Below, one piece after another: positions 1,127-21,848 of a stretch of DNA of 64,000 nt; within the stretch, counting starts at the first letter, position 1, and every line of letters begins with the position of its first letter. Origin of the DNA: Bacteroidia bacterium. Lineage in GTDB: Bacteria > Bacteroidota > Bacteroidia > B-17B0 > Aurantibacillaceae. The position numbers and the translations under genes were made by a program. The notes below the pieces were generated by a model that worked only from the letters and a program-made list of their open reading frames with translations, was not told where the DNA came from and did no database searches. The stretch spans positions 1 through 64,000 of the forward strand of contig JAEUTQ010000018.1 in the NCBI GenBank assembly GCA_016787445.1, in the 5' to 3' direction.

Positions 1127-1627
1127 ATGTCAAAACAAAAAGCATATACCTTAGATCCATCACCGGAGGATTATAACTTTTTGTTGTACGGAATTGCTTG
1201 TCCGGATAACCAATATTTTATTGTCAATGCTATAAATGACGTTTTAGGAATAGAATTACGCCTTGAAGAATATATTGATTTAAGTCACCGCATGGGTAAG
1301 GATTTTAAATTTTCATTTTATAGCTTTTTCGATGAGGCATTAAATTTGGAATATAATTTAATTCCGAACCGCAGTAATTATGTGGCACAGGAAAACAATG
1401 AAAAAGAAGGCGGTGATTTATTCTCGCTCTTTAATGAAACTGTTGATGAGAGTAGTAAACTGATTCCTGAACTTACAAAAACAGATTATCTGCTATTAAT
1501 AAAAGGCGACGAGCATTATCATCACAGTTATAAAATTGCGGAAGCGTTAAAGAAAATTCCTGAAATAATTACTCTTCAGGAAATAATTCCTGATCAATTA
1601 AGCAGTAAGAGTAATTTAATTTTCTAG
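1127..1627 (+). CDS. IPExxxVDY family protein
   Basis: 166 residues with no signal peptide or membrane segment, so cytosolic. The C-terminal third carries the family signature as IPELTKTDYLLLIKG (Val replaced by Thr in the VDY part) and ends in the typical SKSNLIF tail. The N-terminal half has the family pattern of an acidic stretch and a SFY-S-F-FDE block around residues 62-70. The family is small, confined to Bacteroidota and of unknown function. In related genomes it often sits near pyruvate kinase or rnc, which is not the case here. Its stop is one base from the convergent thiL stop. Confidence 0.82.
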   Translation: MSKQKAYTLDPSPEDYNFLLYGIACPDNQYFIVNAINDVLGIELRLEEYIDLSHRMGKDFKFSFYSFFDEALNLEYNLIPNRSNYVAQENNEKEGGDLFSLFNETVDESSKLIPELTKTDYLLLIKGDEHYHHSYKIAEALKKIPEIITLQEIIPDQLSSKSNLIF

Positions 1628-1628
1628 T

Positions 1629-2678
1629 TTACTTTTTCAGCAAAGCATCCCAGCCTTGCGCTTTTAATGCTGCGACTGTTCCTGATTTAGTAACGAGGTT
1701 GGTTCCCTTTTCCTTATTGGTAATGTGTCCTATGACTGAAAAATCAGGAAGATTTTTTACTTTATCATAATCTGCAGCATCTATGGTGAAAAGTAATTCA
1801 TAATCTTCGCCGCCACTTAAAGCGCAAACAGTTGCATCTAAATTAAATTGACGCGCTGTATCATAGGTTTGAGAATCGATTGGAATTTTCTCCTCATACA
1901 ATTCACAACCCACATTAGATTGTGTACAGATATGCAAAATTTCAGAAGCTAAACCGTCACTCACATCCATCATGGATCTTGGTTGTAAATTTAAATCGGA
2001 AAATAATTTAACGATATCCTTTCTGGCTTCCGGTTTTAACTGTCGCTCTAAAATATAATCCTTGCCTTCTAAATCAGGTTGGATATTTGGATTTTCCTTA
2101 AAGATGGTTTTTTCTCTCTCTAAAATTTGTAAGCCCATATAGGCTCCACCCAAATCTCCACTCACACATAATAAATTTCCTTCCTTAGCACCGTGGCGAT
2201 ACACCACTTTATCTTTCTCACACTCGCCTAAAACAGTAATATTAATTACCAAACCGCTTAGTGAAGAGGTTGTATCTCCGCCCACTAAATCAACACCGTA
2301 TTTCTGACAAGCTAAAAGCATTCCTGCATATAACTCTTCTACTGCTTCCAAACTAAAGCGACTGGAAATTGCCATGCTTACAACAATTTGCTTGGGCTGA
2401 CCATTCATCGCATAAATATCGCTCAGGTTCACTATAACAGATTTGTAACCCAAATGCTTTAAAGGAACATACGTTAAGTCGAAATGAACGCCTTCCACTA
2501 ACATATCACTCGAAACCAAAGTAACTGTATTTGTATTTGTGTAATTAATGACAGCCGCATCATCACCAACGCCTTTAATGGTTGAAGGATTTTTTAATTC
2601 AATATGTTCGGTAAGATGTTTAATTAAACCGAATTCGCCTAATGCACTTAACTCTGTTCTTGTGTTATTTTCCAACAT
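1629..2678 (-). CDS. thiL: Thiamine-monophosphate kinase
   Basis: Phosphorylates thiamine monophosphate to thiamine diphosphate with ATP, the last step of cofactor synthesis. 349 residues, normal for ThiL. Visible motifs are GVGDDAAV near residue 36 (Mg/ATP), the SSDMLVEGVHFDL block near 56, VGGDTT near 132, DVSDGLASE near 239 and SGGEDYELLFT near 288. I chose the ATG at 2678 (MLENN) because homologues start there and it lies 4 bases after the methyltransferase stop. An in-frame ATG at 2696 would overlap that gene by 14 bases. It is the last gene of the leftward SRPBCC-ALDH-methyltransferase operon. No TPP riboswitch is seen upstream. Confidence 0.95.
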   Translation of the reverse strand: MLENNTRTELSALGEFGLIKHLTEHIELKNPSTIKGVGDDAAVINYTNTNTVTLVSSDMLVEGVHFDLTYVPLKHLGYKSVIVNLSDIYAMNGQPKQIVVSMAISSRFSLEAVEELYAGMLLACQKYGVDLVGGDTTSSLSGLVINITVLGECEKDKVVYRHGAKEGNLLCVSGDLGGAYMGLQILEREKTIFKENPNIQPDLEGKDYILERQLKPEARKDIVKLFSDLNLQPRSMMDVSDGLASEILHICTQSNVGCELYEEKIPIDSQTYDTARQFNLDATVCALSGGEDYELLFTIDAADYDKVKNLPDFSVIGHITNKEKGTNLVTKSGTVAALKAQGWDALLKK

Positions 2679-2682
2679 GATT

Positions 2683-3366
2683 TTATTTTTTAGCATGACC
2701 GTAAACTATATAGTGATACCCTTTTGGTAAATTATTAAATACAACTGAATCGATATGCCCGAATACGTTGCGAGAAGCTTCATTAAAACCAAAAGCTCCC
2801 ATGAATCCTGCCGTGTGCAATTCTGTATCAGTGAATTTATTCAGGTAATTTTTTATTTGTGAATAGTGCATATAATTCCAATCCTTCGCCCACTTTACAA
2901 AATTCTTTCTGAAGAAAGAATGAAATTTACTTGCTCTTAAATTTTCGGCAAATAGAAAAATTCCACCCGGCTTTAACGCCTTGTAAATTTCATTGATACT
3001 TTTTTCCATTCTCTCATCCTTTCCCTCACGCCCTACTCCACCTAAAACAGATTTCAAAATGATTACATCAAAATGATTTTCGTAAGGAATTTCTACCGCA
3101 TCGAAACATTGATACTCTATTTCTCCTTTTAATTTCAAAGATGAATGATGCTTTTTAATTTCATCCGGTGTTGGCTTTATGTCGTTACACACTACACTAT
3201 GTCCTTTTGCTGCCAGCCACAATGACAATCCGCCTTTGTTTGCGCCAATCTCCAAACACATCAGTTTTTTATCCTTAGGAATTACTTTTTCCCAATGTAA
3301 TAATGCTTTCGACCAGTTTTTTACATCCCAGCCAAGTATATCTTTATTGCTAAGCTCTCGCTGCAT
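2683..3366 (-). CDS. Class I SAM-dependent methyltransferase
   Basis: 227 residues. The Rossmann motif I appears as LEIGANKGGLSLWLA near residues 39-53. Motif II is VVCNDIKP, and a post-I acidic loop with an FDVIILKSVLGGVG segment follows near 94-107. A KPGGIFLFAENL motif near 133 is typical of small-molecule methyltransferases of the UbiE/COQ5-like fold. The substrate is unknown. Its ATG overlaps the stop of the aldehyde dehydrogenase by one base (TAATG), implying translational coupling. The shared operon suggests, but does not prove, a linked substrate. Confidence 0.83.
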   Translation of the reverse strand: MQRELSNKDILGWDVKNWSKALLHWEKVIPKDKKLMCLEIGANKGGLSLWLAAKGHSVVCNDIKPTPDEIKKHHSSLKLKGEIEYQCFDAVEIPYENHFDVIILKSVLGGVGREGKDERMEKSINEIYKALKPGGIFLFAENLRASKFHSFFRKNFVKWAKDWNYMHYSQIKNYLNKFTDTELHTAGFMGAFGFNEASRNVFGHIDSVVFNNLPKGYHYIVYGHAKK

Positions 3367-4811
3367 TATTTTAGTTTAACGCAAACGTTTTTAGGCTCTG
3401 TAAAGAAATCAAAAGCTTCGAATCCGCCTTCGCGACCTACACCAGATGATTTCACACCGCCAAATGGCGTACGTAAATCACGCAACAACCAACAATTAAT
3501 CCAAACAATTCCGGTGTGTAATTCTGACGCTACACGATTTGCCTTTGTGATATCCTGAGTCCAAACTGTAGATGCTAAACCATACATGGTTGAATTCGCC
3601 ATCATTAAAACTTCTTCCTCCGTATCGAATGGGGTGATAGTTACTACCGGCCCGAAAATTTCTTCCTGATTCGTACGGCAATCATAACTTAAACCTTCTA
3701 TAACAGTTGGCTCTACATAAAAGCCATCTTGAAATTCTCCTTCTATAATTTTACGTTTACCGCCACATAAAACTTTTCCACCTTCTTGCTTTGCTAATTC
3801 AACATAGCTTAAAATCTTCTCCATGTGTGGTTTTGAAACGACTGCACCAATTTTTACACCATCCTGGAGGGGTGGACCAACCGTTAGTTTCTTTGTTTTC
3901 TCAACGAAGTCGTTCTTGAATTTTTCATAAATAGGTCGCTCTACAAATATTCTTGAGCCGCATAAGCAAATTTGTCCCTGATTCGCGAATGAAGACAACA
4001 TCGTTGTCGATAACATTTTATCGTAATCGCAATCGGCAAAAATGATATTAGGGTTTTTTCCTCCTAACTCTAAAGACATTTTCTTGAACATTGGACCTGC
4101 CACACTTGCTATATGCGCACCCGTTTTTGTTCCTCCCGTAAAAGAGATAAGAGGAATATCCTTATGCGAAACAATTGCATTTCCTACTTTTGGACCTAAT
4201 CCATGTACAATATTTAATACGCCCTTTGGCAATCCGGCTTGAATACAAATTTCTGAAAGTAAATAAGCCGTCATTGGAGTTACTTCGCTGGGCTTTGCAA
4301 CCACAGTGCATCCGGCAGCCAATGCAGGAGCAATTTTCCAGGTAAATAAGTACAATGGCAAATTCCATGGAGAAATACATCCGGCAACACCAACCGGTTG
4401 ACGTAAGGTGTAATTAATCGCTGTATCTTCCATCGCATGTGCATGCGATGAATAATGCAAAATGCCTGTTGCATAAAAATTAAAATTAGCAGCAGCTCGT
4501 GGAATGTCGACTGTTTTAGCTAAGTGAAGCGGCTTACCATTATCAACACTTTCAATAAGCGCTAACTTGTCTAAATTCTCTTCTATTAAGAATGAAATTT
4601 TTTGAAGAATGCGTGAGCGTGTTTCTTTTGGCGTATTACTCCAAGCTTTAAACGCGGCCTTTGCAGCTTTTGTTGCCAACTCCACATCGCGCTCATCGCT
4701 ATCAGGAATCAAAGAATAAACTTTTCCGCGCGAAGGATCTACGTTATCGATATACTGATTTGAAATTGGCGCTACTAATTCGCCATTGATGTAATTTTGA
4801 ATTTTACTCAT
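3366..4811 (-). CDS. Aldehyde dehydrogenase, 2-aminomuconate 6-semialdehyde dehydrogenase-like (ALDH8 type)
   Basis: 481 residues from ATG 4811; an upstream in-frame TTG at 4817 adds only two residues. The catalytic Cys lies in GQICLCGSR near residue 284. The general base Glu is in LELGGKNP near 251, and the NAD loop is SFTGGTKTG near 228. The region WINCWLLRDLRTPFGG and the ending DFFTEPK closely resemble animal ALDH8A1 and bacterial 2-aminomuconic semialdehyde dehydrogenases, which oxidise 2-aminomuconate semialdehyde in kynurenine (tryptophan) degradation. Hydroxymuconic semialdehyde dehydrogenase is the main alternative. A RidA-family protein resembling 2-aminomuconate deaminase lies at 55005. 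The gene is flanked by an SRPBCC protein and a methyltransferase in one operon. Confidence 0.85.
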   Translation of the reverse strand: MSKIQNYINGELVAPISNQYIDNVDPSRGKVYSLIPDSDERDVELATKAAKAAFKAWSNTPKETRSRILQKISFLIEENLDKLALIESVDNGKPLHLAKTVDIPRAAANFNFYATGILHYSSHAHAMEDTAINYTLRQPVGVAGCISPWNLPLYLFTWKIAPALAAGCTVVAKPSEVTPMTAYLLSEICIQAGLPKGVLNIVHGLGPKVGNAIVSHKDIPLISFTGGTKTGAHIASVAGPMFKKMSLELGGKNPNIIFADCDYDKMLSTTMLSSFANQGQICLCGSRIFVERPIYEKFKNDFVEKTKKLTVGPPLQDGVKIGAVVSKPHMEKILSYVELAKQEGGKVLCGGKRKIIEGEFQDGFYVEPTVIEGLSYDCRTNQEEIFGPVVTITPFDTEEEVLMMANSTMYGLASTVWTQDITKANRVASELHTGIVWINCWLLRDLRTPFGGVKSSGVGREGGFEAFDFFTEPKNVCVKLK

Positions 4812-4817
4812 GTACAA

Positions 4818-5336
4818 TTATTTTTCACACAATTCCTTAAGGTTTTTTAATCCTTGCTCGAATTGCTGATTTAAGTTTTTATTAATCATCGGCCCCATTA
4901 ATCGTGCCATAGGGTATGTTAGTGGACCGTTATTCTCCCACACCACTTTTGTAGTTCCATTTTGCAAATCATCAAATGTCCAACTGTCTAATGCAGTACT
5001 TTTCCATGGTTTAATAAATTCAAGATCCAAAGTAATTTCTTGCGGCGCAGTAAAACCTTTGATTGTTAAACTTCCTTGCCCGATTTTCTTTCCATCCCAT
5101 GCAAATTTGTGTCCTACTGTTCCCGGCGCTCCTGTTATTTCCGATTTAGCATCCTGTTCCATTTTATGCCATGGATTCCAATCGCGGTAATGATTTAAAT
5201 TTGAAATACGCTCATATACATGCGCGGCAGGCTTATTAATTACAATTTCCTTTTTGATACTATACTTGCCGGGTAAAATAGCAGCGATAATCAGCACCAA
5301 GCCAATTATTGCGATAAGAATGTAGATTATAATCAT
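4818..5336 (-). CDS. SRPBCC-fold protein with N-terminal membrane anchor
   Basis: 172 residues. Residues 1-23 are a single hydrophobic helix. The rest follows the START-like SRPBCC pattern of membrane-anchored bacterial polyketide-cyclase-like proteins: a beta strand with KEIVINKPAAHVYERISN, then the DWNPWHKME block, a central beta sheet with KVVWENNGPLTYPMARL, and a long amphipathic C-terminal helix. These bind hydrophobic ligands in a helix-grip cavity; no ligand is known for this branch. It is the first gene of the operon leading to the aldehyde dehydrogenase, with a clear -7 box 22 bases upstream. Confidence 0.8.
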   Translation of the reverse strand: MIIIYILIAIIGLVLIIAAILPGKYSIKKEIVINKPAAHVYERISNLNHYRDWNPWHKMEQDAKSEITGAPGTVGHKFAWDGKKIGQGSLTIKGFTAPQEITLDLEFIKPWKSTALDSWTFDDLQNGTTKVVWENNGPLTYPMARLMGPMINKNLNQQFEQGLKNLKELCEK

Positions 5337-5357
5337 AATTCAATTTTTAGGTTTAAA

Positions 5358-5365
5358 CAAAGATA
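5358..5365 (-). promoter_or_regulatory. Bacteroidota -7 box for the SRPBCC-ALDH-methyltransferase-thiL operon
   Basis: Read on the minus strand this is TATCTTTG, a perfect TAnnTTTG -7 element of the Bacteroidota primary sigma factor. It lies between the terminator of the respiratory operon and the ATG at 5336, giving a predicted leader of about 15 bases. No good TTTG -33 element is visible. Confidence 0.55.
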
Positions 5366-5374
5366 CTAAAAACA

Positions 5375-5402
5375 AAAATGCCCCCTTTTAAGGAGGCATT
5401 TT
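5375..5402 (-). terminator. Intrinsic terminator of the act-cox operon
   Basis: An inverted repeat pairs AAAATGCC (5375-5382) with GGCATTTT (5395-5402), extended by a CC/GG pair past one mismatch. On the minus strand it is followed by a T-rich tract (TTTTTGTTTTTAG). It lies just beyond the coxA stop. Confidence 0.75.
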
Positions 5403-5420
5403 GTAAGTTTTATTTAACGA

Positions 5421-7247
5421 TTAGTGTTCGCCACCGTCATGTTCGCCTTCAGCTAAAGGAACGGTTTGAGGAACGAAATCGTGTTCTTGTCCAGGCTTGC
5501 TGTAATCGTAAGCCCAACGGTGAACAACCGGTAAAGCACCAGGCCAGTTACCGTGAATATTTGCCATTGGAGTAGTCCACTCTAATGTGTTAGAATTCCA
5601 TGGGTTTTGAGGAGCCTTCTCTCCACGGAACATACTATAGAAAAAGTTGAATAAGAAAATAACCTGACCTAAAGCACCAATGATAGCTGCTACAGTAACA
5701 ATAATATTAATATCAACCAAATTATCAAACATTGGGAAATTACTATTGGTATAGTAACGACGGGGTACTCCTGCTAAACCTAAGAAATGCTGAGGGAAGA
5801 ATACGCCGTAAGCTGAAATGAAAGTAATCCAAAAGTGCAGATAACCTAACTTCTTATTCATCATACGTAAAAACATTTTTGGGAACCAATGATATACACC
5901 GGCAAACATTCCGAAGATTGCAGAAAGACCCATTACAATATGGAAGTGAGCAACCACAAAATAAGTATCATGAACATTTATATCTAGTGTAGAGTCGGCT
6001 AAGATAATACCGGTAACACCACCGGTAATAAATGATGACACTAATCCAATAGAGAATAACATGGCAGGTGTATATTGAATATTGCCTTTCCATAATGTAG
6101 TAATGTAGTTAAATGCTTTTACTGCGGAAGGAATCGCAATTAATAATGTTGTAAATACGAATACCGAACCTAAGAATGGATTCATGCCGGTCATATACAT
6201 GTGGTGACCCCACACAATGAATGACAAGAAACCAATCGCTAACATGGAACCAATCATCGCACGGTAACCGAAGATTGGTTTACGCGAGTTAGTAGATATA
6301 ATTTCAGAAGTAATACCTAATGCAGGTAATAATACGATGTATACCTCAGGGTGACCTAAAAACCAGAATAAGTGCTCGAATAAAATAGGGCTACCACCAA
6401 CATTATCTAATGGACGGCCACCGATATAAATATCAGATAGGTAGAAACTTGTTCCGAAGCTACGGTCGAATATTAACAATAATGCGCAAGAGAATAATAC
6501 AGGGAAAGATAACACACCTAAGATAGCTGTAATTAAGAACGCCCAGCACGTTAAAGGCAAACGAGTCATGCTCATACCCTTTGTACGTAAGTTAACAATG
6601 GTAATGATGTAATTTAAACCACCTAATAAAGATGAAACAATGAATAATGCCATTGAAGTTAACCAAAGTGTCATACCTAATTTAGAACCAGGCATAGCTT
6701 CAGGTAAAGCTGATAATGGAGGGTAGATTGTCCAACCCGGAGAAGCAGGTCCGTCTTCAATAAAACAAGAACCTAACATGATTGCGCTCGACACAAAAAA
6801 GAACCAATACGATAACATGTTCATGAAGCCTGAAGCCATATCACGAGCGCCAATTTGATAAGGGATTAATAAATTGGAGAAAGTACCGCTTAAACCGCCT
6901 GTTAAAACCATAAACACCATAATCGTACCGTGAATAGTAACTAAAGCTAAATACATATTAGGATCAAGAATACCATCTTTGCCCCATTTATCGCCAAGAA
7001 TCGCATTGATAAATGCGAATTTTTCTCCCGGCCAAGCTAATTGTAAACGGAAAATAATTGACATTGTCATTGCCACAACGGCCATAATGACCGCGGTTAT
7101 TAAAAACTGGCGAGAGATCATCTTGTGATCCATACTGAAAATATACTTACTTACAAAGCTCTCCTCATGGTGGTCATCATGATGTGAATGATCGTGATGT
7201 GTGGCATGCTCGTGTTCCAGTGCTGTTGTTGTATGTGTAGATCCCAT
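5421..7247 (-). CDS. ctaD: Cytochrome c oxidase subunit I (aa3-type)
   Basis: 608 residues and about 12 membrane helices. This is the catalytic subunit, with haem a and the haem a3-CuB centre. Seen directly: VTIHGTIMVF, the FLGHPEVYIVLLPALG block with the CuB His, the cross-linked Tyr and the helix VI Glu of A1-type oxidases, the HHMY pair, and VVAHFHIVMG in helix X. Residues 10-28 are an unusually His/Asp-rich leader common in this phylum. It is the last gene of the act-cox operon, 34 bases after subunit II, and is followed by a terminator. Subunits III and IV are not in the window. Confidence 0.97.
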   Translation of the reverse strand: MGSTHTTTALEHEHATHHDHSHHDDHHEESFVSKYIFSMDHKMISRQFLITAVIMAVVAMTMSIIFRLQLAWPGEKFAFINAILGDKWGKDGILDPNMYLALVTIHGTIMVFMVLTGGLSGTFSNLLIPYQIGARDMASGFMNMLSYWFFFVSSAIMLGSCFIEDGPASPGWTIYPPLSALPEAMPGSKLGMTLWLTSMALFIVSSLLGGLNYIITIVNLRTKGMSMTRLPLTCWAFLITAILGVLSFPVLFSCALLLIFDRSFGTSFYLSDIYIGGRPLDNVGGSPILFEHLFWFLGHPEVYIVLLPALGITSEIISTNSRKPIFGYRAMIGSMLAIGFLSFIVWGHHMYMTGMNPFLGSVFVFTTLLIAIPSAVKAFNYITTLWKGNIQYTPAMLFSIGLVSSFITGGVTGIILADSTLDINVHDTYFVVAHFHIVMGLSAIFGMFAGVYHWFPKMFLRMMNKKLGYLHFWITFISAYGVFFPQHFLGLAGVPRRYYTNSNFPMFDNLVDINIIVTVAAIIGALGQVIFLFNFFYSMFRGEKAPQNPWNSNTLEWTTPMANIHGNWPGALPVVHRWAYDYSKPGQEHDFVPQTVPLAEGEHDGGEH

Positions 7248-17163: not shown

Positions 17164-18189
17164 TTGAGTTTTAAGGTCTTGAAACAGCTCACTTTAATAC
17201 TCCCAAAACTTAGTTTTTTAAAGCTAAATAATGCTGTAAAGGCTTTATTTTCATACCATTTGTCGCGCTTCGTCCGAAAACCGTTCGCCAACGCAATGCC
17301 TCTGAGTATTTCCATTGAACCAACCACCAGTTGCAATTTGCGTTGTCCGGAATGCCCAAGCGGATTGCGACAGTTCACACGCCCAACCGGAATGCTTCAA
17401 TTACAACGATTTGAAAAAATAATTGAAGAGCAACGTAAAACACTCATCAACATCATGTTTTACTTTCAAGGTGAGCCTTATTTAAATCCTGAATTTTTAG
17501 AAATGGTAAAGATTGCCAGTCGGAAAAAAATTTTCACAGTTACGAGCACCAACGCACACTATCTCACAGATGAAAACGCGAAAAAAACCATTGAAAGCGG
17601 TTTGGATAAAATAATTATTTCGATTGACGGCACCACACAAGATACGTATGAGCAATACAGAATAGGCGGACAATTAGAAAAAGTAATTGCCGGAACAAAA
17701 AACATTTTAAAATGGCGTAAACAACTCAGGAGCAAAACGCCCTATGTGGTATTTCAATTTTTAGTTGTAAAACCCAATCAACATCAAATTGATGATGTAT
17801 ATAAATTGGCTGAAGAATTAGGCGTAGATGAAGTAAAATTGAAAACCGCACAGGTTTACGATTTTGAAAATGGAAACGAATTAATTCCCACAATTGAAAA
17901 ATATTCGCGCTATGCACAAAACGCTTCCGGCAAATGGCAGATAAAAAATAAATTGTTGAATCAATGCTGGCGCATGTGGAGCAGTTGTGTTATTACCTGG
18001 GATGGATTGGTTGTGCCGTGTTGTTTTGATAAGGATGCTAAGCACCAACTGGGAGATTTAAAACAAACTTCATTTAAAGAAATTTGGTACTCGGAAAAGT
18101 ATAATACTTTCCGAAAATCAATTTTAAAATCCAGAAAAGAAATTGATATCTGCACCAATTGCACAGAGGGAACTAAAGTGTGGGCTTGA
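17164..18189 (+). CDS. Radical SAM/SPASM domain protein
   Basis: 341 residues if translated from TTG 17164. The radical SAM cluster motif CNLRCPEC is near residue 58, followed by PSGLRQFTRPTG and FQGEPYLN. A C-terminal SPASM-like part holds further Cys: CWRMWSSC, VPCCFDKDA and ICTNC near the end, for auxiliary 4Fe-4S clusters. Such enzymes modify peptides or carry out sugar/cofactor chemistry; the substrate is unknown. The start is uncertain: the reading frame needs the segment before residue 45 by family comparison, yet has only TTG codons (17164, 17179), and a TAACTTTG -7-like box overlaps the first. No obvious precursor peptide gene lies alongside. Confidence 0.85.
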   Translation: MSFKVLKQLTLILPKLSFLKLNNAVKALFSYHLSRFVRKPFANAMPLSISIEPTTSCNLRCPECPSGLRQFTRPTGMLQLQRFEKIIEEQRKTLINIMFYFQGEPYLNPEFLEMVKIASRKKIFTVTSTNAHYLTDENAKKTIESGLDKIIISIDGTTQDTYEQYRIGGQLEKVIAGTKNILKWRKQLRSKTPYVVFQFLVVKPNQHQIDDVYKLAEELGVDEVKLKTAQVYDFENGNELIPTIEKYSRYAQNASGKWQIKNKLLNQCWRMWSSCVITWDGLVVPCCFDKDAKHQLGDLKQTSFKEIWYSEKYNTFRKSILKSRKEIDICTNCTEGTKVWA

Positions 18190-18192
18190 TTT

Positions 18193-18223
18193 TTTGGAGA
18201 TTTCTGTTTTTTTTATACATTTA
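18193..18223 (+). promoter_or_regulatory. Putative promoter of the lipoprotein / T9SS protein pair
   Basis: TTTG at 18193-18196 and TACATTTA at 18216-18223 are separated by 19 bases. This matches the Bacteroidota TTTG-N19-TAnnTTTG arrangement with one mismatch (final A). It leads to the ATG at 18251. Confidence 0.45.
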
Positions 18224-18250
18224 CTTAACTAACTATTAAAAACAAATATT

Positions 18251-19235
18251 ATGGTAATTAAAACTAAATTGGCATTAGTCTTAGCCATCAGCTTAAGCTT
18301 TGCCGCATGTAACAAAACTACCCCCCCCCCCTTCTGCTAGTAATGGTGGTGAAAATCAAACTTCTAGCAATAACGAAGTGCAACAAAAACTCTACAATCT
18401 TTCTGCGGAAGAATGTGATAAAGTAATTAGATCATTTAAAGACTATACTAAAGTAAACACTATGTATGGTAAAATTGAATCTTCAACCATACCAGCTGAT
18501 TCTTCAATTTGGTTAATTGAAGCGGCATTAAATTACGATTTTGATAAGCCAGGAACTGAAGAATCTGTTCATGATTCATGCGGATATGAAATTGACCTGA
18601 CTGAATCATATATGGTAAATTCAAATCAACTTGCATCCGCTTATAATTACATTTACAACTATATAAATCAAAGTATAAACTCCCAAAAACAAGTTAAAGT
18701 AATTGATATCACTGGATTTTCTAATGGAAATAAGCTTGTATTTAGTGCTTATATTAAATATAACTCCAGCTCAAATGGTAATAAAATAATGGGGCCATGT
18801 GATCTTTATACATCTGGGTCTGCCGCTTGGAATCCATGTGGATCACCTAATGCAATTACTTGGGCCGAAGTAAAATTAAACTGTACCGCATACAATCCAG
18901 GTTGTCCCGGTAGTTGGTATTGGACAAGTATAACCAATGCTTTTATTGATAATCAAAACGGCGCCTATTCTTCATCTCTTTATTATGTAGCAAGCACTAT
19001 GAATACATGCCCATCTTTATATTACACTACCATTAACGGATACATTACAGGCTGTAGGAATTTAGGCACATCGAATCATCCAGGTGGCAGTTATATTTTA
19101 ATAGACTATGATATTACTTGGGGTTTAATCTGGCTTGGAGGATCATCATATAAGCAATGGTGGGATTTGAATATAAGATATGGCATCCCTCAATGTTCTG
19201 GTGGTGGTGGTGGCAGATTTTCGACAATTAATTAA
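18251..19235 (+). CDS. Cys-rich lipoprotein of unknown function, frameshifted at a poly-C tract
   Basis: From ATG 18251 the frame encodes a clear lipoprotein signal (MVIKTKLALVLAISLSFAAC, Cys at residue 20). It then runs into 11 consecutive C at 18321-18331 and stops at TAG 18338-18340 after 29 residues. Removing one C (or adding two) joins it to the long downstream frame ending at 19235, giving about 327 residues. The body is rich in Asn, Ser, Gly and Tyr, with eight Cys (for example DSCGY, NPCGS, PGCPG, TGCRN, PQCSG) that could form disulphides, and ends after a Gly run. No known family was recognised. It is 8 bases from the following T9SS protein. Whether this is phase variation, decay or an assembly error is open. 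Confidence 0.68.
18321..18331 (+). repeat. Poly-C homopolymer, 11 bases
   Basis: Eleven uninterrupted C within the codons just after the lipobox Cys, in a Thr/Pro stretch. The present length puts the signal peptide and the mature domain in different frames; 10 or 13 C would restore fusion. It is the most striking homopolymer of C or G noticed in the window. Confidence 0.95.
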
Positions 19236-19243
19236 AATACAAG

Positions 19244-20755
19244 ATGAATAGATTAAGATTAATTCTTTTGGGCATATGTTTCGTTAACGGAGCATATGCC
19301 CAATATATTTTTACTAGACAAAACACAGATAATTACTGGTTCAAAGGTGTATATGAAGATTCGGTTAGCAAAAACCTATATATTACTGCATCTTTAATTA
19401 AGTCTACGCCGGGTTATCTTAACACCACATCCAATATTTTCAAACTAGATAAAAACGGAGTGTTATTAGATTCAATTAAAATAGACTCCAATTTAATGGT
19501 GAATGCTGCTATTACCAAAATTGGAAATAATCATTACATTCACGGATCCCAAGCAGTGAATACCAATACCTCTGCGTTCAAAGCTATTCCCGTAATTTAC
19601 AAATGCGATCAAAACTTTAATATAATTAAGAAATTAGTCCTTGATTCAAATTTCGTAAGTGATGATGCTTTGGTAAATGCTCACCTTTTACAAAAAAATA
19701 ACAGGTTATATATTGCATTTGCTTTAATGAATTATTCTACTGTCAGATTATTTAAACTTGATTTCAATCTTAATAAACTGGATTCTCTTACGTTTAATGG
19801 TTCCTTTACATGCGATTTGGCTAATTACGGTAACAGGATACTTCTTTCTGGTGCAGGATTTCCTTCTATGTCGCTAACCGGAAAAAATCAGGTTGCCGAA
19901 TTGGATACTTCTTTTAATGTTTTGTCACGATTCAACCTGGATAGTGTCACTTCTGTAAATCCGGGTTGCTTTCAAAAAGTAGGAGTAACTTATGGACATA
20001 CTAATCTGTATGAACTAAGTTCAAATCGGTATTTAATGACCGGGTATTCCAAAGTTACATATAATAGCTCTTGCCAATGGTATATCAAAAACACTAATGC
20101 AATAATCAAAAACAATTCGATAATTGAAAAATCAAATATTATTGGTAAGCCTGGGGCCCATATACTTTATACTATGCCTTATACTTCGTCGCATAAAAAA
20201 TACAATTACATTTTCACTACCGGTATGTATGGGTACAATTATTCAAATCCCTATCCGCCTCAATCAGCTCCAACCGAAATTATGGTAAACAAAATAGATA
20301 CGGCTGCTAACCTAATATGGGTAAATTATTATAGCACTCCCAATTATTATTATTCACCTTTAGGAGTTACCGGAACTTCTGATAGTGGCTGTGTGGTAAC
20401 CGGAATGCGGTACAACCTTTTGGCACCTGCTGTTGCTAACACCTGCGAAGGATTTGTATTAAAACTAGATAAAAATGGAGTTATACAATATACCGGAATT
20501 AACGACAAGGATATAATTCAAAAACCAATCGTTAACATTTATCCTAACCCGGCATCAAAAGAAATTACTTTGGAAGTCAATTCAAACGATTACTTTGAAT
20601 TGGAAATTTATAATAGTATTGGCGAACTTGTTAAATATGAAACAAGGGTTAAAGAAAAAACAACAATAAACACCGAGGGCTTACCGCAAGGTCTTTACCA
20701 TTTCAAATTGCAATCTAACAAGAATAACTACTCGGGGAAATTTATTAAGCAATAG
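19244..20755 (+). CDS. T9SS type A sorting domain-containing secreted protein
   Basis: 503 residues. Signal peptide at residues 1-19, ending GAYAQ. The middle has repeated short beta-strand units with Asp/Asn turns (FKLDKNGVLLDS, YKCDQNFNI, FKLDFNLNKLDS, AELDTSFNVLS), suggesting a beta-propeller-like fold; this is inference. The C-terminus is a classical type IX secretion sorting domain: NIYPNPASKEITLEV, then ELEIYNSIGELV and LPQGLYHFKL, ending FIKQ. The product should be exported across the outer membrane and cell-surface attached or released. It follows the frameshifted lipoprotein by 8 bases and is probably cotranscribed. Stop codons of this gene and convergent hemD are one base apart. Confidence 0.88.
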   Translation: MNRLRLILLGICFVNGAYAQYIFTRQNTDNYWFKGVYEDSVSKNLYITASLIKSTPGYLNTTSNIFKLDKNGVLLDSIKIDSNLMVNAAITKIGNNHYIHGSQAVNTNTSAFKAIPVIYKCDQNFNIIKKLVLDSNFVSDDALVNAHLLQKNNRLYIAFALMNYSTVRLFKLDFNLNKLDSLTFNGSFTCDLANYGNRILLSGAGFPSMSLTGKNQVAELDTSFNVLSRFNLDSVTSVNPGCFQKVGVTYGHTNLYELSSNRYLMTGYSKVTYNSSCQWYIKNTNAIIKNNSIIEKSNIIGKPGAHILYTMPYTSSHKKYNYIFTTGMYGYNYSNPYPPQSAPTEIMVNKIDTAANLIWVNYYSTPNYYYSPLGVTGTSDSGCVVTGMRYNLLAPAVANTCEGFVLKLDKNGVIQYTGINDKDIIQKPIVNIYPNPASKEITLEVNSNDYFELEIYNSIGELVKYETRVKEKTTINTEGLPQGLYHFKLQSNKNNYSGKFIKQ

Positions 20756-20756
20756 C

Positions 20757-21848
20757 TTAACGCTTGTTCGCTTCTTTAATGTAAGCATCCAAAGCCATAC
20801 TCATACTTGGGTTTTGAGGGTTCGGAGCGAAAATATCTAAACGATATCCTAATTGTTTTACCATTTGCGCAGTTGCATGACCAAAGGCTGCAATGCGTGT
20901 TCCTGCTTGCTTAAAATTAGGGAAGTTTTGTTTTAAAGAGCGAATTCCTGCCGGTGTAAAAAACACCAACACATCATACTCACTCAGATTTTTTATGTCA
21001 GATAAATCAGCTGAAACGGTACGGTAGAAAATTCCTTTTGTGTAAGAAATCTTTAACTCATCCAAAAAATCCGCGATTTGTTCTTTATGAACATCCGAAC
21101 ATGGTAATAAAAACTTTTCTTCTTTGTTTTTACGAATTACATCTACCAGGTCTAATAAAGTTCCGTGCCCGAAAAATATTTTACGTTTACGGTATTGAAT
21201 ATACTTCTGTAAATAATAAGCTGTTTGTTCATTAATACAAAAGTACTTCATGGTTTCAGGAACAGTGATGCGCATTTCATTACACACTCTGAAAAAATGA
21301 TCTACCGCCAAACGGCTGGTTAAGATAACCGCACCATGAGCCAAAATATCTATTCTTTGTGCTCTGAAATCCATTGCACTTAATCCTTCTACACGAATAA
21401 ACTGACGGAAATTTATATTTAAAGAATACTTACGGCCTAAATCCAAATACGGATTTTTATCATTATCGGCAGGCTTTGGTTGCGACACCAAAACATTCTT
21501 TACTTTATTCTTTGGGAAATTACTGATTTCAATAACTGGTAATGGTGGTGGAACGTAAGCAGGCTGCTTAGCATTTTTTCTCTCCTTTTTTACCGGTGCT
21601 TCTTGAACTTGTTTTGGTTGCTTTTCTGGTTTAGTTGCTTTTGAGATAACCTTTTTCACAGGTTTCACAACTGCCTTTTTCACTTGCTTTTTTACTTTAG
21701 CAACTTTAACGGGCTTCTTTTTTGCAACTGCCTTTTTAGGTTTAGTAGTTTTCTTTGCAGGTTTTTTTACAGCTTTAGCTTTTTTTGCTTTTACAGTCTT
21801 GCTACCTTTTTTACTTGTAGGTTTTGACTTTGTTTTTTTAGCTGCCAT
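20757..21848 (-). CDS. hemD: Uroporphyrinogen-III synthase with histone-H1-like N-terminal tail
   Basis: Closes hydroxymethylbilane to uroporphyrinogen III in haem synthesis. 363 residues, about 110 more than usual. Residues 1 to about 105 are a Lys/Ala/Pro tail (KKPAKKTTKPKKA-type repeats) resembling the tail of eukaryotic histone H1 and of the DksA-like protein at 60538. The enzyme domain runs from about residue 117 (VKNVLVSQPKP) to the end, with ILTSRLAVDHFF, ERKNKEEKFLLPCSD-like and FFTPAGIRSLKQNF blocks of the HemD fold. It starts 4 bases after DUF4271, an association common in this phylum. Confidence 0.88.
   Translation of the reverse strand: MAAKKTKSKPTSKKGSKTVKAKKAKAVKKPAKKTTKPKKAVAKKKPVKVAKVKKQVKKAVVKPVKKVISKATKPEKQPKQVQEAPVKKERKNAKQPAYVPPPLPVIEISNFPKNKVKNVLVSQPKPADNDKNPYLDLGRKYSLNINFRQFIRVEGLSAMDFRAQRIDILAHGAVILTSRLAVDHFFRVCNEMRITVPETMKYFCINEQTAYYLQKYIQYRKRKIFFGHGTLLDLVDVIRKNKEEKFLLPCSDVHKEQIADFLDELKISYTKGIFYRTVSADLSDIKNLSEYDVLVFFTPAGIRSLKQNFPNFKQAGTRIAAFGHATAQMVKQLGYRLDIFAPNPQNPSMSMALDAYIKEANKR

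Follow-up and report, generated by a model that had tools for sequence, protein, structure and literature searches.

We analyzed a stretch of 64,000 nt (hereafter the window), which is positions 1 to 64,000 of contig JAEUTQ010000018.1 in a Bacteroidia bacterium assembly (GCA_016787445.1). Between a radical SAM/SPASM gene and the gene for uroporphyrinogen-III synthase, the window carries a two-gene segment whose first gene, for a lipoprotein, is split between two reading frames at a run of 11 C. The features of this region, in window coordinates, are:

17164-18189, + strand: left flank, radical SAM/SPASM protein gene, with its stop codon now completed by the insert
18188-20754, no strand assigned: 2567-bp segment missing from the congener G007 and three other congeners, with GCTT at 18184-18187 and 20755-20758
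18251-18310, + strand: lipoprotein signal peptide MVIKTKLALVLAISLSFAAC, start ATG at 18251, lipobox Cys20 codon at 18308-18310
18251-18340, + strand: 29-codon product as read with 11 C, ending at TAG 18338-18340 (the putative OFF state)
18321-18331, + strand: 11-C tract, the frame switch point
18333-19235, + strand: lipoprotein mature domain, 300 codons and stop, in the +1 frame
19244-20755, + strand: partner gene, encoding a 503-aa T9SS-exported protein with a predicted beta-propeller and a C-terminal sorting domain (residues 432-503)
19268-19303, + strand: hairpin within the signal-peptide codons of the partner (stem 16 bp, loop 4 nt, z about -5 to -6), with TATATTTTTA after it
20757-21848, - strand: right flank, uroporphyrinogen-III synthase gene (hemD)

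The frame opened by the ATG at 18251 encodes the signal peptide, then NKTTPPPFC, and then the stop. The signal portion has the n-region, the hydrophobic core and the lipobox ending in Cys that mark bacterial lipoproteins (such signals were recognized by eye and with a simple pattern). The mature domain is +1 relative to this frame, beginning SASNGGENQTS and running without internal stop to the TAA at 19233-19235. A preliminary description of this DNA had placed the signal and the 300-residue domain in different frames split exactly at the 11 C, and had stated that 10 or 13 C would join them; translation confirms the split, and the arithmetic is correct. The length of a single-unit tract sets the reading frame, as at slipped-strand phase-variable loci.

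Long C/G runs had also been called rare in this genome, and indeed the tract is the sole C/G run of at least 9 on either strand of the 3.77-Mb assembly. In the window there are 28 C runs of length 4 and five of length 5, none of lengths 6-10, and then the run of 11; C8 matches number 4, against at most 3 in 100 shuffles, and the longest G run does not exceed 4. The tract is much longer than composition predicts, a characteristic of simple-sequence-repeat (SSR) contingency loci. Since CCC is the least used Pro codon in the six flanking genes (8/131) and appears just once in the mature domain, consecutive CCC is not a codon habit. Chance and codon habit would both be poor explanations of the tract.

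Neither Pfam nor NCBIfam has a match to the mature domain, and a fold search gave no match at E <0.001, a weak test with a model of pLDDT 65.6. Homologs were found in 11 of 87 genomes of the GTDB family when the single sequence was used and in 13 by profile, at ~21-36% identity to the mature domain. Weaker relatives exist in other families of the class, and these have no C9 tracts near their starts. Against named genomes, the mature domain alone as query found no relative and the profile found nine loci; the named homolog records are metagenome-assembled Bacteroidota throughout. A lipoprotein signal is visible in most homologs, and all 16 positions that are invariant across 12 homologs are kept in the window's mature domain.

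A post-lipobox C run occurs in five homologs of two other genera, and all five are continuous in frame. Two copies in genome G097 have C7 after CKKNETS (G097a) and C6 after CKKNETT (G097b), two in G092 (G092b and G092c) each have C9 after CNKLKNT, and the one in G101 has C13 after KTT, its lipobox being out of view because the contig starts 8 nt before the tract. With the window's own, the lengths are 6, 7, 9, 9, 11 and 13 C at a kept position, as expected of an SSR locus. The preliminary description had looked to relatives for tracts of other lengths and for intact genes with the same signal. Both exist, in that the two other genera do supply C runs of differing length and intact homologs do carry a lipoprotein signal, but with five bearing the run there are about ten that have no C tract; the switch is therefore not essential to the lipoprotein family. 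The homolog in G061 has decayed at its start, with ACG for ATG and a TGA ahead of the Cys. In the G029 homolog (L085) the frame is broken at a nine-T run inside the signal peptide, so that this lipoprotein family has a second lesion at a homopolymer. A lipoprotein of G074 (L207), in the same clade but unrelated to these homologs, has C12 directly after its lipobox, in frame.

The second gene of the segment starts at 19244, 8 bases past the lipoprotein stop, and its identification as a T9SS-exported protein in the preliminary description is borne out by a T9SS type A sorting domain (PF18962, 49.6 bits with cut-off 27; TIGR04183, 47.5 bits with cut-off 23). Its predicted fold is a beta-propeller (pLDDT 80). 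The best fold match is CylK, a Friedel-Crafts alkylating enzyme (PDB 7ron, E 5.5e-14, and 7roo; TMq 0.54-0.57), a likeness that at 16% identity is limited to the propeller fold and from which CylK activity is not inferred for the partner. Of 16 lipoprotein genes, the window's included, 13 are followed by a gene for a T9SS-type protein that resembles the window's partner (24-38% identity), and G097 has a tandem array T9SS-lipoprotein-T9SS-lipoprotein-T9SS. By these comparisons, the lipoprotein and the predicted T9SS beta-propeller protein form a conserved two-gene cassette.

The GCTT that borders the 2567-bp segment is present in single copy at the empty sites, and in G007, G006, G002 and G003 the radical SAM gene lies directly against the HemD gene, their stops overlapping. 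Because the site is empty in all four congeners, insertion is likelier than repeated loss, and a recent arrival of the cassette in the window's genome appears the more likely history. At the same radical SAM/HemD junction, G005 (L075) has a different insert of ~4.3 kb (1248-5540), in which we recognized by eye a YceI-like protein and a large sensor with a SpoIIE-like end. The comparisons suggest that these convergent stops may be an insertion hot spot.

The hairpin at 19268-19303 lies 24-59 nt past the partner's ATG (z -5.35) and has a U-rich stretch after its stem, the layout of a putative terminator. The closest homologs, two partner genes of G097 and one of G101, carry hairpins of similar strength (z -5.3 to -6.8) at the corresponding position with respect to the signal-peptidase site; their arm sequences differ, so that position is shared and sequence is not. 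Counting the window's, 4 of the 14 partner genes have a strong hairpin there and the ten others lack it; all four of the genes that have it lie directly 3' of C-run lipoproteins. Among 412 ORFs in the DNA of the compared loci, eight have a hairpin of at least 13 bp within the first 120 nt, mostly cassette genes, and the enrichment in cassettes is 4/15 versus 4/397 (Fisher p 7e-5). Between G101 and one G097 copy, two changes are compensatory, three affect one side only, and none breaks a pair, although this pattern, from two sequences only, is matched by 113 of 500 shuffles. It is possible that the hairpin is an attenuator that would extend the OFF state to the partner. Elsewhere, in G017 (L091, ~3384-3428), an inverted repeat with a 21-bp stem immediately follows a lipoprotein homolog and precedes the signal peptide of the next gene.

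To place the tract in its wider setting, we gathered C9+ tracts from the GTDB family and assessed 128 distinct ones. On the C strand, 29 of the 128 lie at the 5' end of a frame of at least 150 aa, and on the G strand 7 do; of random positions, 2.9% lie at the 5' end of such a frame. The nominal p of 6e-18 for C-strand placement is too small, because some of the genes with tracts are related to one another. Together with three more tract-bearing genes, the 29 comprise 14 protein families. The largest set consists of secreted proteins with C9-C16 placed 3-20 codons past the start and before the signal-peptide core, one of them with a weak YadA-head similarity under Pfam's cut-off. Such secreted-protein tracts of C9-C16, in a mixture of ON and OFF states, were seen in sister genera at L122, L123, L124, L126, L141, L142, L154, L160-L166, L198, L219 and L229, and four secreted tract-bearing genes share contig 12 of G029. 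Among the tract genes whose upstream start is clear, about a third read in frame, matching the prediction for freely changing tract lengths. Some C tracts (L117, L139, L082) lie within ~100 nt of contig ends, as expected if assemblies break at such places through heterogeneous reads or low coverage. C tracts are scarce in the window's own genus, and the host lineage is therefore no heavy user of them.

We considered whether lipoboxes in this clade are generally followed by poly-C and rejected the idea, since among the tracts examined the arrangement is confined to this lipoprotein family and one other; most 5' tracts stand ahead of the signal-peptide core. A search of 395 genomes of the class for TGTAA followed by C9 found many sites, apparently by chance, and the loci examined included no further clear lipoprotein.

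We propose that the locus is probably an SSR contingency locus, a slippage ON/OFF switch of a surface lipoprotein that is OFF in the assembly. In the living cell, slippage during replication would alter the length of the C run past the lipobox. Of every three length classes, one would join the signal to the mature domain, yielding a lipoprotein directed, presumably, to the surface (ON); the other two would stop early and leave a short lipopeptide alone (OFF), the state that the assembly would have captured. When the lipoprotein is untranslated, the partner would probably be lowered too, by translational coupling or polarity, because its start is 8 bases past the lipoprotein stop and a terminator-like hairpin lies inside its own coding region. 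Such switching may serve in escape from phages or predators. The phase-variable lipoprotein of the preliminary description is supported by comparison, through the tract lengths of the homologs, the unrelated C12 lipoprotein and the clade-wide 5' tracts found both ON and OFF.

A possible objection is that the C run was miscounted in sequencing or assembly, so that in the cell the gene has an intact frame, its tract perhaps still hypermutable. Every platform has difficulty with C/G runs this long, the window gene has no other defect, and five of five tract-bearing homologs read in frame. About 59 kb of the window can be aligned with its nearest congener, G007, at 92-97% identity per block. We found no clear uncompensated coding frameshift; the single-base gaps inside genes were in compensating pairs or at doubtful ORF ends. 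Moreover, out-of-frame tracts are numerous elsewhere, in independent assemblies, at about the proportion that real length variation predicts, although a platform error shared among them could mimic part of this. We consider miscounting unlikely.

A second objection is that a recently acquired gene has simply decayed, losing its frame for good. The cassette does appear to have been recently inserted, one homolog, that of G061, has decayed at its start, and about ten homologs are free of the tract. Against this, the window's mature domain has neither a stop nor a lost invariant residue, its sole lesion is at the most mutable place possible, and tracts have been retained at the same spot in other genera. 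The preliminary description would have read simple decay from tract-free homologs combined with further inactivating mutations in this gene; tract-free homologs exist, but the window gene carries no other lesion. Permanent loss of the gene seems to us quite improbable. Least credible is programmed recoding, by which slippage during transcription or frameshifting by the ribosome at the C tract would yield full-length protein at any DNA length; in principle, so long a homopolymer at the junction is slippery. Recoding should fix an out-of-frame layout, and the homologs instead vary (6, 7, 9, 9, 13) and are in frame unaided.

Returning to the slippage switch, we raise only tentatively, as an idea that may well prove wrong, a broader extension of it: that this little-known order of Bacteroidia uses poly-C tracts broadly for secreted and lipid-anchored proteins, and that the cassette is a mobile pair in which one tract switches both genes, the hairpin stopping transcription when the first is OFF. 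Slippage phase variation has been described mostly in host-adapted pathogens, and Bacteroidota are known for DNA inversion. If true, a poly-C phasome in this lineage would offer a natural setting in which to ask whether contingency loci can be maintained by phages or predators instead of an immune system. Annotation can easily overlook such genes or label them broken, because about two thirds of copies would be out of frame at any time.

In the literature library that we searched, we found no report of C-tract phase variation in Bacteroidota. SSR contingency loci have been reviewed (PMC11868660), and in the portion of that review drawn on here the Bacteroides examples with a named mechanism are DNA inversions. 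The loci described there resemble this one in that surface genes carry a mutable tract close to their 5' end and that genomes differ in whether the copy is in frame or out of frame. A survey of 99 genomes (PMC2831843) found a 5' bias of homopolymers in poly-A/T (5-8 bases) but none in poly-C/G; the 5' bias is common to those homopolymers and to the tracts of this family, which are however poly-C of 9-16. A close parallel in layout is hpuAB of Neisseria meningitidis, in which a poly-G lies in the frame of hpuA, whose lipoprotein is paired with the outer-membrane receptor HpuB (PMC3786947). The partner there is a TonB receptor and here a T9SS propeller protein, and the phylum differs; we claim no relation between the two. 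By analogy, both would place a C/G homopolymer in the frame of a lipoprotein that has a second surface protein as partner, with ON and OFF set by frame.
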